DNA of 64,000 nt from Clostridiaceae bacterium (GTDB lineage Bacteria; Bacillota; Clostridia; UBA1212; DUPL01): assembly GCA_012838385.1 (NCBI GenBank), contig DUPL01000012.1, forward strand, positions 1 through 64,000. Direction: 5' to 3'. The notes below the pieces were generated by a model. The model searched no databases. It saw nothing but the letters and a program-made list of their open reading frames with translations, and was not told the DNA's origin. Position 1 is the first letter of the stretch. Each line of letters starts with the position of its first letter. The translations under genes and the position numbers were made by a program. Of this stretch, positions 36,423 through 41,371 are shown piece after piece.

Positions 36423-37391
36423 ATGAGATTACAAAAGATAGCATCAGGAATTGCAATTTTCTTCGCAGCAATAATTTATGTAGTATTCGCTCCACAAACG
36501 GTTTATTCGGATACGGTGGGATTCGAATCCGCCAAACTTTTGAGCGAACTTGGCATCTTTTACATAGACAAAGACATGAGCGACAAGGAACTTTCCGATT
36601 TCCTAAAAGAAAAATCCACCAAGGCAATTGCATACAATCTGGCTTTTGGTCTAACCGGGGCTGTCAAAGATCCATACACTGGATTAATTGACGCAAGTTT
36701 TTCGCTACGCTTTTTCAAAAGCGAAAATTTGTCTGTTTACACCAATATGCTTGATACAAGGGAATACATCTCATCCACTGAATTAAGTTCTGCCGACTGT
36801 TATAGGGTTTTTCTTGATGTGCTGGGTTATGAATCAATGAAGGGTAAGAGCAACGAGGAAGTTCTTTTGGCAGCACAAAATGCAGGCTTTGGATACTTCC
36901 AGCCGGTTGATAATAAAGAAAATATAACCAACGGAGAACTTGTGAATACCGCCTTCGAAGCTTTATATCTTTGCGGTGTGAAGACCAAGATACCAACAAT
37001 ACATTCACTATCGCAAATTAATCCAGATTTGAAATCCAAAGCTGTAAAACTTGGCATGATAGATTTGTTCCCCGAAGATATCCCCATGTTTACCGAAGGA
37101 CCATACAAAACCCAGACTTTTTCTGAACTTATTGGTACGGATGTAACAACAAATGTTAAAAAGCATGAATGGTCCGCCGAATATTTGAATGTAAATTTGG
37201 CAGGTTATGAAAATTATAAAAATAAACTTGTTAATTCCGATTGGCTATTTGAAGTTGAATTCTACAAAGAATCGGAAGACTTTGAGGATCTTTGCGTATT
37301 GTACTATAAAGTAATTGATGGTTTGGAACACTATGTTACGCTTGTATTCAATAAAGAATCGAAAACCTTGGAACTCTGGTATGCTTATTAA
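36423..37391 (+). CDS. Secreted or surface protein, function unknown
   Basis: 322 residues. A signal peptide at about 1-30 ends near TVYSDT. Three stretches (FESAKLLSELGIFYID, SSADCYRVFLDVLGYE and NGELVNTAFEALYLCGV) have the spacing of divergent S-layer-homology-like helices, but not a convincing match. The C-terminal 70 residues look like an independent beta-rich domain ending LVFNKESKTLELWYAY. GGAGG lies 6 bases before the ATG. Its 3' end overlaps the sigH-like gene by four bases. Confidence 0.72.
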   Translation: MRLQKIASGIAIFFAAIIYVVFAPQTVYSDTVGFESAKLLSELGIFYIDKDMSDKELSDFLKEKSTKAIAYNLAFGLTGAVKDPYTGLIDASFSLRFFKSENLSVYTNMLDTREYISSTELSSADCYRVFLDVLGYESMKGKSNEEVLLAAQNAGFGYFQPVDNKENITNGELVNTAFEALYLCGVKTKIPTIHSLSQINPDLKSKAVKLGMIDLFPEDIPMFTEGPYKTQTFSELIGTDVTTNVKKHEWSAEYLNVNLAGYENYKNKLVNSDWLFEVEFYKESEDFEDLCVLYYKVIDGLEHYVTLVFNKESKTLELWYAY

Positions 37392-37957
37392 GCATTCTTG
37401 AGTTTTCTTTTTACCCTTTGCAATGCATTGTCAATAGCCTTGGGGTCCTTGTTTAATGTGCCTGCAATGCTTGCATATGAATCCCCATTAAGAAACATAA
37501 TAAGGACCTGTTTTTCAAAATCACTAAGAAGTGTGTCTATCTTTTGTTTAAATATCTCAGTCGATTCCTTGCTTATCGCAATCTCCTCAGGGTTTGACAA
37601 ATCCGAAGTGGTAAGACAATCCATATCACAGTCGTCATCATTCTCCTTGTAAATCGATACATAAGAATTAAGAGGCAGGTGTTTAAGCCTGTTTGCTGAT
37701 TTAACAGCGCTTATCACCTGTCTCTTTATACAAATTTCCGCATATTTTCCGAAATTGACATTCTTGCCCGGGACAAACGACAGTATAGCCTTGTACAAGC
37801 CTATCATACCTTCCTGCAGCAAATCCTCGCCATCAGCTCCGGTTAGAAAATAAGCTCTTGTAACAGTCCTGACAAGACTTTTGTACTTAACCAACAAAGA
37901 TTCCATATGCTGGTCGCTGCCCTGTTGAGCAAGCATTACCAATTTTTCGTCATTCAT
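37388..37957 (-). CDS. sigH: Sigma-70 family factor, SigH (Spo0H)-like
   Basis: 189 residues. Region 2 reads FLTGADGEDLLQEGMIGLYKAI, and KRQVISAVKSANRLKHLPLNSYVS and the region 4 segment DNALQRVKRKL closely match SigH of Bacillus. SigH directs early sporulation and transition-state genes. It is shorter than the 210-218-residue SigH at both ends and may be a paralogue. It lies directly after cysS; in B. subtilis mrnC, rlmB and yacP lie between cysS and sigH, so position supports the name. The ATG at 37957 follows the cysS stop closely. Confidence 0.8.
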   Translation of the reverse strand: MNDEKLVMLAQQGSDQHMESLLVKYKSLVRTVTRAYFLTGADGEDLLQEGMIGLYKAILSFVPGKNVNFGKYAEICIKRQVISAVKSANRLKHLPLNSYVSIYKENDDDCDMDCLTTSDLSNPEEIAISKESTEIFKQKIDTLLSDFEKQVLIMFLNGDSYASIAGTLNKDPKAIDNALQRVKRKLKNA

Positions 37958-37962
37958 AGATA

Positions 37963-39363
37963 TCAATCCACAATTTTCGTTCCTTCAGGAGTATCAATTA
38001 TCTTGATGCCCATCTCTTTCAATTGGTCCCTGATAGCATCAGCCCTGGCATAATCCTTGTTCTTTTTAGCCTCTGCCCTAACGCGTATAAGCTCATGAAC
38101 CTCTTCACTAACTTTGCTTTTTGCATTCTTCTGAGCTTCTTCCCTCTTGATAACCTGATTCTCCATATCAAGCCCCAATACATTATCAGTCTTAATAACA
38201 AAATCATATATCTTTCTACTCTTTTCGGAGTTCCTTAGCGCCTTCCATACAACACCCAATGCCTGAGGGATGTTCAAATCGTCATTTACAGCGTCAAGAA
38301 AATCTTTTTCAAAATCCTTAATCAACTCATCAGAAACATCATCCTGGCCTTCCTTGTGTTGCATTAATGCATCATAGAGTCTATCCAGTGCTTTGGATGC
38401 TGCTGTCAAAGCGTCAAAAGTAAAGTTTAGCTTGTTCCTGTAATGACCGTTCAGACAGAAATACCTGTAGGCAAGTGGCTCATATCCTCTTTCCTTAAGG
38501 TCCTTTATTGTGTATGTGTTGCCAAGACTTTTTGACATCTTGCCGCCGTCAACCAAAAGAAATTCGGCATGCATCCAGTACTTGACAGTCTCCTTTCCAG
38601 TCAAGGCTTCAGACTGAGCAATTTCATTCTCATGGTGTATGGGTATGTGGTCCACACCGCCAGTATGGATATCAAATTCATCACCAAGATAATCCCTTGC
38701 CATGGCAGAGCACTCGATATGCCAGCCTGGATATCCCATTCCCCAAGGGCTTGCCCATTGCATGATGTGCTCTTTCGGAGCCTTTTTCCACACTGCGAAA
38801 TCTGCAGGGTGTCTCTTTTCATCATTTACAGAAACCCTTGCTCCGGCCATCTGGTCCTCCAGGTTTATTCTAGAAAGCTTGCCGTACTCTGGAAACTTTT
38901 CAATATCAAAATATATTCCATCACTGGTTTCATAAGCATATCCCTTTTCTACCAACGATACAACAAACTCAATCATGCTTCTTATGTGTTCAGTTGCCTT
39001 CACAACAATCTCAGGTGTTTCAATGTTCAGGCTCTTTATATCATCAAAAAATACATTTGTATAATACTCTGCAATTTCTTCCGGTGTTTTTTGCTGTGCT
39101 TTTGCAGCCTTTGCCATTTTATCCTCGCCTTCATCCGCATCGGACACAAGATGGCCTACATCGGTAATATTCATTACATGCTTCAGCTTATACCCATTCA
39201 GCCTCAACACTCTTCTAAGGGTGTCCATGAAGATATATGTTCTTAAGTTGCCGATATGGGCATAATTGTACACGGTAGGACCGCAGGAATAAATTCTTAC
39301 TTCGTTGCCTTCCAAAGGTTTGAATTCTTCTTTTTGTCTACTCAGTGTGTTGTATATCTTCAT
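37963..39363 (-). CDS. cysS: Cysteinyl-tRNA synthetase
   Basis: Charges tRNA-Cys. 466 residues. The class I signature HIGN is in CGPTVYNYAHIGNLRTY, the zinc ligand Cys28 and the WHIECSAM segment are present, and the KMSKS loop reads KMSKSLGN. The anticodon-binding C-terminus ends QLKEMGIKIIDTPEGTKIV. It overlaps cysE by 26 bases, so cysE-cysS are tightly coupled, linking cysteine synthesis to its use. No T-box precedes the operon. Confidence 0.97.
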   Translation of the reverse strand: MKIYNTLSRQKEEFKPLEGNEVRIYSCGPTVYNYAHIGNLRTYIFMDTLRRVLRLNGYKLKHVMNITDVGHLVSDADEGEDKMAKAAKAQQKTPEEIAEYYTNVFFDDIKSLNIETPEIVVKATEHIRSMIEFVVSLVEKGYAYETSDGIYFDIEKFPEYGKLSRINLEDQMAGARVSVNDEKRHPADFAVWKKAPKEHIMQWASPWGMGYPGWHIECSAMARDYLGDEFDIHTGGVDHIPIHHENEIAQSEALTGKETVKYWMHAEFLLVDGGKMSKSLGNTYTIKDLKERGYEPLAYRYFCLNGHYRNKLNFTFDALTAASKALDRLYDALMQHKEGQDDVSDELIKDFEKDFLDAVNDDLNIPQALGVVWKALRNSEKSRKIYDFVIKTDNVLGLDMENQVIKREEAQKNAKSKVSEEVHELIRVRAEAKKNKDYARADAIRDQLKEMGIKIIDTPEGTKIVD

Positions 39364-40072
39364 TTTTATCTATCTCCATTTTCTGTTCATATTTCTTTTT
39401 CACGCATTCCAGTTCACTAATCTTGTGATTGAGTTCTTCAATCAATGCCTGAAGGTGTTTCTCCCTTTCCTTTATCGTTTCCATTATCTTCATCAATTCC
39501 TGATTTATAGGATCAGGAACTTTTGTATGCTCAAGTGTTTCAGAGGGAGCTACCTTCTGTCCATACATCTTTACAATCCTCGCTTTCATTCCTGTTACAG
39601 TGCAGTTGTCAGGAACATCATTCAGAACAACAGAACCGGCACCTATCAGTGAGTTATTTCCAATCGTGACAGGACCCAGTATTTTGGCTCCTGCACCGAT
39701 AAGTACATTGTCACCAACGGTTGGGTGCCTTTTTTTATGTTTTTGCGTACCAGTTCCGCCCAGAGTTACCTGATGATATATCGTACAGTTGTTCCCTATT
39801 TCAGCCGTCTCGCCTATTACTACACCATTCCCATGGTCAATAAACAATCCTTCACCGATTTTTGCGCCAGGATGTATTTCAATTCCAGTTTTTCTACTTG
39901 CTCTTTGTGACAAGTATCTTGCTATAAAATACATCTTGTGTCTATAGAAGAACGATGAAAATCTATGATATAAAAGAGCCTTGAAACCTGGATATAGAAG
40001 GATAACTTCCAAGGTGCTTCTAGCAGCAGGATCTCTTTTATATATTGACTTTGCATCTTTTAATAATCCCAC
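39338..40072 (-). CDS. cysE: Serine O-acetyltransferase
   Basis: Makes O-acetylserine for cysteine synthesis. 244 residues. Begins GLLKDAKSIYKRDPAARS, followed by a left-handed beta-helix of hexapeptide repeats (HPGAKIGEGLFIDHGNGVVIGE, GDNVLIGAGAKILGPVTIG). The C-terminal 60 residues are a charged coiled coil not usual in short EpsC-type enzymes. The start is a GTG at 40072 with AGGAGG 6 bases upstream; the longer frame would run through the promoter and the 6S RNA terminator. Confidence 0.95.
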   Translation of the reverse strand: MGLLKDAKSIYKRDPAARSTLEVILLYPGFKALLYHRFSSFFYRHKMYFIARYLSQRASRKTGIEIHPGAKIGEGLFIDHGNGVVIGETAEIGNNCTIYHQVTLGGTGTQKHKKRHPTVGDNVLIGAGAKILGPVTIGNNSLIGAGSVVLNDVPDNCTVTGMKARIVKMYGQKVAPSETLEHTKVPDPINQELMKIMETIKEREKHLQALIEELNHKISELECVKKKYEQKMEIDKNEDIQHTE

Positions 40073-40090
40073 AAAAATCCTCCTATTATT

Positions 40091-40110
40091 ATAATTGTGA
40101 ATACAATTAT
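40091..40110. promoter_or_regulatory. Perfect 8-bp inverted repeat on the cysE promoter
   Basis: ATAATTGT and ACAATTAT arms separated by four bases. It covers most of the -10 box and the predicted start of the cysE-cysS transcript, a typical repressor-site position. A cysteine-responsive Rrf2-type regulator such as CymR is one candidate, by inference only. Confidence 0.5.
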
Positions 40111-40134
40111 ACAACATGGTACATGTAAAGTAAA
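40106..40134 (-). promoter_or_regulatory. Promoter of cysE-cysS
   Basis: TTTACT (40134-40129), a 17-base spacer and a perfect TATAAT (40111-40106) on the minus strand. The -35 lies in the T-rich tail of the 6S RNA terminator. Confidence 0.7.
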
Positions 40135-40141
40135 GAATAAA

Positions 40142-40172
40142 CCGGATGAAACATAAGTTTAGTTTCATCCGG
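40142..40172 (-). terminator. Terminator of the 6S RNA
   Basis: A perfect 11-bp stem (arms 40172-40162 and 40152-40142 on the minus strand) with a 9-base loop, followed by a T-rich stretch (TTTATTCTTTACTTT). Confidence 0.8.
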
Positions 40173-40189
40173 CCAGACATAAACAGAAG

Positions 40190-40401
40190 AAAATATCCCA
40201 AAATGCCGCCACCTTATTTTGACACCTAGCCTCGCTAGGTGGGTATCCTATGGTATACTTCTGCCTTCCCCTGATTCTTGCGAATGGCATTTGTGCCTGA
40301 GGCCTGACATCCGTATCCCAAGTCGGATTCCCTTTTTTGTCATGTAGGTTCAAAATTAAGGTTCCTCGTCGAACATTTCAGGATAAGTTATTTGGTTTTT
40401 C
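40190..40401 (-). ncRNA. ssrS: 6S RNA
   Basis: Regulatory RNA that mimics an open promoter and binds sigma-A RNA polymerase. About 200 bases. The closing stem is formed by 40385-40374 with 40205-40194 (12 pairs, two of them G-U). A second stem pairs 40362-40351 with 40221-40211 with one bulge. The 3' strand of the central bubble carries a perfect CACCTAGC/GCTAGGTG hairpin (40241-40223). End sequences ATGTTCG and GGCGGCAT also occur at the matching places in E. coli 6S RNA. It has its own promoter and terminator. Confidence 0.85.
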
Positions 40402-40407
40402 ATTAGT

Positions 40408-40435
40408 ATTATATCATGTTTTTCGCAAAACGCAA
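40408..40435 (-). promoter_or_regulatory. Promoter of the 6S RNA
   Basis: A perfect TATAAT (40413-40408) with TTGCGT (40435-40430) 16 bases upstream on the minus strand. Predicted start near 40401, matching the predicted 5' end of the RNA. Confidence 0.65.
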
Positions 40436-40444
40436 CAAGCAAAT

Positions 40445-41347
40445 TCAGGTTACTTCGACTTTCAGAAATCCTTCGCGTATTGCGTAGAATAAATACTGCT
40501 GCGCAAACCCGGCAATACTTCCAAAATATTCTTGCACAAACTCATCAATTTCCTTGTGGGTCGACACATTATAAAGGTTTGTCATAACTTTTCTCACCCA
40601 CACATCCACAGGAAAAGCATTGTAATAACTTCCTGTGAAAAGTAGTATGCAGTCTGCGACTTTAGGTCCAACGCCTTTATATTGTCTCATAAACCTTCTT
40701 GCGTTTGCAATGTCAATTTTTTGAAAACTTTCTTTTGAAAAAGGTTGTTCGACAAACAAGCGCGAAGCTTCTACAATATAATTACACCGATAACCCGCTT
40801 TTATACAGTCAGACAATTCGTTTTCACAAACATTGGCAAGATTATGGGGTTTTGGAAAAGCATACACATCATCCTTGATTTTTTCTCCATAGTTTCTGCA
40901 AAGGTTTTCAATGCACTTCTTTATTCTCGGAATGTTGTTATTTGCAGAAATTATAAACGATACAAGTGTTTCAAAAGGTTCCTGGCGTAGAATTCGAATA
41001 CCCTTGCCAAATTCTATGGCCCGCCTCATATACTCATCTTTTAAAGATAGCTCACCCTTTATTTTCGAATAATCTCTTTCCAGATCGAAATAATCCAACC
41101 AGAAAGTATAAAATTCTTCTTTTGTGGAACCAATAATCTCAAGCACCCCATCTGAATATTTAATCTCTGCGTAATTCTCACCTGCTACACCACAATAGTG
41201 TCCCATGGGGTTTAGATTCCACCTGAAACACTGACCGCATTCGAATACGTGTTTAGGGTTGAAGTCTTTCACACCATATACCCTGATTCCCTTTTTCGTT
41301 TCCTCAACTTTGTACATGACCTTCACTCTTTCAACTATATCAAGCAT
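40445..41347 (-). CDS. ogg: 8-oxoguanine DNA glycosylase / AP lyase
   Basis: Removes oxidised guanine from DNA. 300 residues. N-terminal OGG_N domain (about 10-110) and a helix-hairpin-helix glycosylase domain with YKGVGPKVADCILLF carrying the catalytic Lys and FPVDVWVRKVM carrying the catalytic Asp. The FECGQCFRWN segment is typical of clostridial Ogg1-like enzymes. The start is uncertain: ATG 41347 is used, and an ATG at 41317 is also possible; neither has a strong ribosome binding site. Confidence 0.9.
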   Translation of the reverse strand: MLDIVERVKVMYKVEETKKGIRVYGVKDFNPKHVFECGQCFRWNLNPMGHYCGVAGENYAEIKYSDGVLEIIGSTKEEFYTFWLDYFDLERDYSKIKGELSLKDEYMRRAIEFGKGIRILRQEPFETLVSFIISANNNIPRIKKCIENLCRNYGEKIKDDVYAFPKPHNLANVCENELSDCIKAGYRCNYIVEASRLFVEQPFSKESFQKIDIANARRFMRQYKGVGPKVADCILLFTGSYYNAFPVDVWVRKVMTNLYNVSTHKEIDEFVQEYFGSIAGFAQQYLFYAIREGFLKVEVT

Positions 41348-41371
41348 CAATTTTACGCCAACACAACTGCA

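Follow-up and report, generated by a model that had tools for sequence, protein, structure and literature searches.

Upstream of cysE, an earlier note on the 64,000-nucleotide stretch of DNA analyzed here (the window) had placed a 6S RNA, a well-known small RNA that sequesters the main RNA polymerase once growth slows down, and had suggested that transcription reading through its terminator could link this global regulator to cysteine synthesis. Two questions follow, whether the locus is a 6S RNA gene and whether its position beside cysE has a regulatory meaning. We consider the locus an ordinary 6S RNA gene, a member of a well-known family, which would be transcribed from its own sigma-A promoter to its own intrinsic terminator, with cysE and cysS transcribed independently from a separate promoter; the probability that we give to this joint reading is about 0.93. 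The coordinates of all features are collected in Table 1.

Table 1. Features of the 6S RNA locus and its surroundings (window coordinates)
Feature	Position	Strand	Basis or remark
cysS, cysteinyl-tRNA ligase, downstream of cysE	37963..39363	-	TIGR00435, 512.7 bits
cysE, serine O-acetyltransferase	39338..40072	-	TIGR01172, 232 bits
Perfect 9-base palindrome TATAATTGT-N4-ACAATTATA	40090..40111	-	spans the cysE -10 region; operator candidate
cysE promoter, TTTACT-17-TATAAT	40106..40134	-	promoter scanner
Intrinsic-terminator-like hairpin, 13 pairs, the two outermost G-U	40140..40174	-	between 6S RNA and cysE
6S RNA (ssrS-type), structured core	40191..40387	-	RF00013 match; covariation, 48 sequences
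Predicted pRNA, 5'-GUAGGUUCAAAAUUA	40344..40358	+	antisense to the 5' strands of central bubble and P2
Putative sigma-A promoter of 6S RNA, TTGCGT-16-TATAAT	40408..40435	-	sequence; kept in G001
ogg-type 8-oxoguanine DNA glycosylase, upstream neighbour	40445..41350	-	PF07934 and PF00730; TIGR00588 below cut-off

Identity and structure of the 6S RNA

A search with the 6S model, the check that the earlier note had proposed, was clearly significant: in a scan of the whole window, 6S RNA (RF00013) was the sole Rfam match above gathering score, covering the full model (positions 1–187) on the minus strand from 40387 to 40191 with 81.7 bits (E = 1.5e-14) against a cut-off of 46.4 bits. A home-made model built from relatives together with the window, whose own sequence was thus part of the training set, gave the locus 160.7 bits, the next match in the window having an E-value of 0.91. 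No second 6S gene was found in the 2.57-Mb draft genome, which is 92.5% complete and could lack an extra copy. Among 58 relatives, 46 had 6S matches, 37 of them above the RF00013 cut-off. Two relatives, G050 (L051, L065) and G041 (L067, L068), carry two 6S genes each on separate contigs, unlike the remaining relatives with a match, which have one each.

The window sequence was aligned with 47 sequences from relatives, a set gathered with the Rfam model and hence biased towards the Rfam structure, although the margins were large: standard pairs filled 91.0% of cells (P2 included) vs. 75.2% in shuffles and 38–53% in slid controls, and both sides of a pair had changed in 333 cells vs. 91 and 61–93, respectively. 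Of the 34 consensus pairs, 25 showed compensatory changes, and covariation was strong in every arm. The closing stem consists of 13 uninterrupted pairs, including three G-U, close to the 12 counted before; the second stem (P2, UUUUGA/UCAAAA) and the central-bubble hairpin (CACCUAGC..GCUAGGUG), both described earlier, were found again and covary across relatives, with double changes at 6/6 P2 pairs. Folding of 40399..40130, i.e., the 6S RNA with its terminator, gave -84.2 kcal/mol (z -4.67), and 0/200 shuffles reached so low a value. Fold and covariation together yield the rod that characterizes a 6S RNA, made up of a closing stem, a central bubble, and an internal arm, and the 6S RNA proposed for 40190–40401 is borne out by the full-model match and the covariation. 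The locus gives a clostridial lineage a clear 6S annotation, complete with predicted pRNA and neighbouring genes; knowledge of 6S RNA itself is unchanged by it.

Predicted pRNA and mode of action

Conservation in the 48-sequence alignment is strong on the 5' side of the central bubble, with the sequence UUUUGAACCUAC, and the template of the predicted pRNA is kept in most of these sequences. Bases 7–12 of this pRNA are complementary to the 5' strand of P2, so that its synthesis would open P2, an event described for 6S RNAs (PMC8876501). The rod would mimic an open promoter, bind sigma-A RNA polymerase, and hold the enzyme during slowed growth, until the polymerase used the central bubble as template for a short pRNA beginning 5'-GUAGGUUCAAAA, P2 opened, and the 6S RNA was released. 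From membership in the family we infer that the RNA binds polymerase here and is copied into a pRNA; that it is expressed, and is released in this way, is likewise expected.

Transcription signals of the 6S gene

The promoter of its own that had been claimed for the RNA is present as a putative TTGCGT-16-TATAAT element, from which transcription would be expected to start near 40401. Both hexamers are unchanged in the sister species G001, and a TTGC-type -35 with TATAAT occurs again upstream of the 6S gene in several relatives. Against the claim stands the weak -35 (3/6 vs. TTGACA), too weak for the generic promoter scanner, which omits the element.

The terminator part of the claim holds for the existence of a hairpin, not for its place, which at 40174..40140 is outside 40190–40401. 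The hairpin has -19.7 kcal/mol (z -6.3) and is followed by the T-rich tail UAUUCUUUAC; as this tail is interrupted and a pattern scanner calls no terminator at the hairpin, termination may be incomplete. A stop at the hairpin would give a primary transcript of ~265 nt, so that a ~200-nt form needs 3' processing, and we infer a ~265-nt precursor processed to ~200 nt, unless transcription stops at the U-rich stretch just past the closing stem. The stem is identical in G001 and the loop is changed. The hairpins that follow the 6S RNA in G019, G026, L082, and others are unrelated to that of the window; in most of the more distant relatives with this gene order, a different hairpin is present and the distance to the gene is larger, and in G053, where cysS directly follows the 6S gene, no clear hairpin was seen by eye.

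The cysE gene and the palindrome over its promoter

cysE is present in a single copy in the genome, and in the collection searched, from which its own or very near genomes may have been omitted, the nearest named CysE relatives of the lineage are ~60% identical. The gene probably starts with the GTG at 40072 after AGGAGG, as its homologues align from this region, and the frame running to 40201 would be an upstream extension. In G001, its promoter differs by three substitutions in the spacer, the two hexamers being the same. Other RNA elements or a T-box were not found between the 6S RNA and cysE in the window. At another locus (L080, a Clostridiaceae MAG, ~1286–2501), a T-box-like leader (AGAGTGGAACCGCG) was seen by eye between the two genes.

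A repressor binding the palindrome over the -10 region could regulate cysE and account for growth-linked control without any 6S RNA, which is compatible with an independently acting 6S RNA and which we regard as possible, if rather unlikely. The palindrome is the sole perfect copy in the genome, is identical in G001, and the genome encodes one Rrf2-family regulator (G000:C17:164-553). However, the entire 5' leader is identical in G001 and not the palindrome alone, -10 regions are AT-rich anyway, near-matches outnumber those of a control pattern only slightly (10 vs. 7 sites per strand), and the site is a candidate operator to which no regulator is assigned.

Conservation of the gene neighbourhood

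The order ogg, a small Se/S carrier-like protein gene (PF11823), 6S, cysE, cysS recurs in several Clostridia and is complete in Ruminiclostridium cellobioparum (L082), while the window and G001 have ogg-6S-cysE-cysS without the carrier-like gene. Parts of it are kept elsewhere: ogg-6S-cysE with a small frame between in G006, 6S-cysE-cysS in G019 and G042, 6S-cysS in G026 and G053, and the upstream ogg in G041, G043, and G044, where cysE is absent beside the 6S gene. Most relatives differ in their 6S neighbours, other families having other genes there. A 6S gene was found within 2.5 kb upstream in 2/80 named cysE loci, some of which are cut by contig ends, and cysE was the first or second gene downstream in 5/48 6S genes (relatives set, window included); a general 6S-cysE linkage was rejected on these counts. 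Gene order beside the 6S RNA varies among relatives, and the arrangement seen here looks inherited, retained in parts of the Clostridia, rather than a sign of coupling.

Directly after cysS (37388–37966, minus strand) lies a gene for a Sigma-H-like sporulation sigma factor. In Firmicutes, mrnC, rlmB, and yacP are usually found between cysS and the sigma factor gene; all three are absent from this interval in the window.

Read-through from the 6S gene into cysE

The earlier note had described the terminator as nested with the cysE promoter, which is roughly right, since the -35 hexamer (40134..40129) is inside the T-rich tail. If some transcription from the 6S promoter passed the terminator into cysE-cysS, cysteine synthesis would rise along with 6S transcription, both in this lineage and in those Clostridia that share the gene order. 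The two genes are on one strand, ~120 nt apart, the T tail is interrupted and overlaps the -35 of cysE, and there is a precedent in Escherichia coli ssrS-ygfA, where termination after the 6S RNA reportedly affects the downstream gene. However, co-transcription of that type goes with neither a strong terminator nor a separate promoter in between, and here a strong hairpin intervenes, whose stem is kept in G001 although its loop is changed, and cysE carries a promoter and a ribosome-binding site of its own. Unchanged hexamers and stem next to a diverged loop and spacer look like two separate working elements, as far as one close species can tell. Most relatives with the order also have hairpins after the 6S RNA, the order itself is rare among named cysE loci, and in Clostridium acetobutylicum changes in the expression of sRNAs and of their neighbouring genes correlated poorly (PMC3879012). 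Titles and abstract beginnings in the literature on 'cysE' with '6S RNA' mention no such link. With the neighbourhood not kept in most relatives, the proposed coupling finds no support, and we consider it improbable. What speaks for a 6S-cysE link is adjacency alone, and this position looks like inherited gene order and is not regulatory evidence.

The reading that the region encodes protein (frame 40165–40353, or cysE read upstream to 40201) and folds by coincidence can be dismissed almost entirely: a 62-aa open frame and the upstream extension of cysE do overlie the 6S RNA, as the remark on masking frames had said, but the former has no Pfam match, the latter disagrees with the AGGAGG and GTG from which cysE homologues align, and the RNA covariation, together with the RF00013 match, refutes coding as the main reading.

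Genes directly downstream of 6S RNA in other relatives

In three relatives of one genus (L035 in G008, L034 in G013, L033 in G027), a small gene starts only 26–38 nt past the 6S RNA, and no terminator was seen in between. The small gene belongs to the PqqD family by Pfam in G008, the copies in G013 and G027 look alike, and a gene of ~300 aa without Pfam match follows in all three. From this layout, the 6S RNA and the PqqD-type operon may be co-transcribed. Hairpins follow the 6S RNA in G002 and G017 of the same genus. In L055 (G051) and L054 (G037), a ribosome site and a start codon are found within ~20 nt of the 6S 3' end, the gene being ThiF/TcdA-like in G051 and glycoside-hydrolase-like in G037 by eye; another 6S-mRNA read-through is possible there.

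Comparison with known 6S RNAs

The window RNA shares with RF00013 the full-length match, the closing stem, P2, the internal arm, the pRNA template, and the central bubble with a hairpin on its 3' side, and differs from the Rfam consensus by a local insert, ~20 bases long and close to the internal arm's tip, but in nothing essential. In E. coli ssrS-ygfA the situation differs from the one here, where the 13-pair hairpin (z -6.3), a T-rich tail, and a separate cysE promoter intervene. Clostridial 6S RNAs, to which the present one belongs, have been detected by Northern blot in Clostridioides difficile (RCd3, expressed, with a sigma-A promoter and bands of ~200 and 175 nt; PMC3649979) and in C. 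acetobutylicum (expressed, with three bands; PMC3879012); a primary transcript ending at the terminator found here would exceed the ~200 nt of the C. difficile RNA. Bacillus subtilis has two 6S genes, where one was found here, and the location of 6S-1 differs from that of the present gene. Its 6S-1 RNA and the present one have the 3'-central-bubble hairpin in common, and the predicted pRNA, like that of 6S-1 (5'-GUUCGGUCAAAACUA; PMC12005410), would begin with G and follow a GG..CAAAA pattern.
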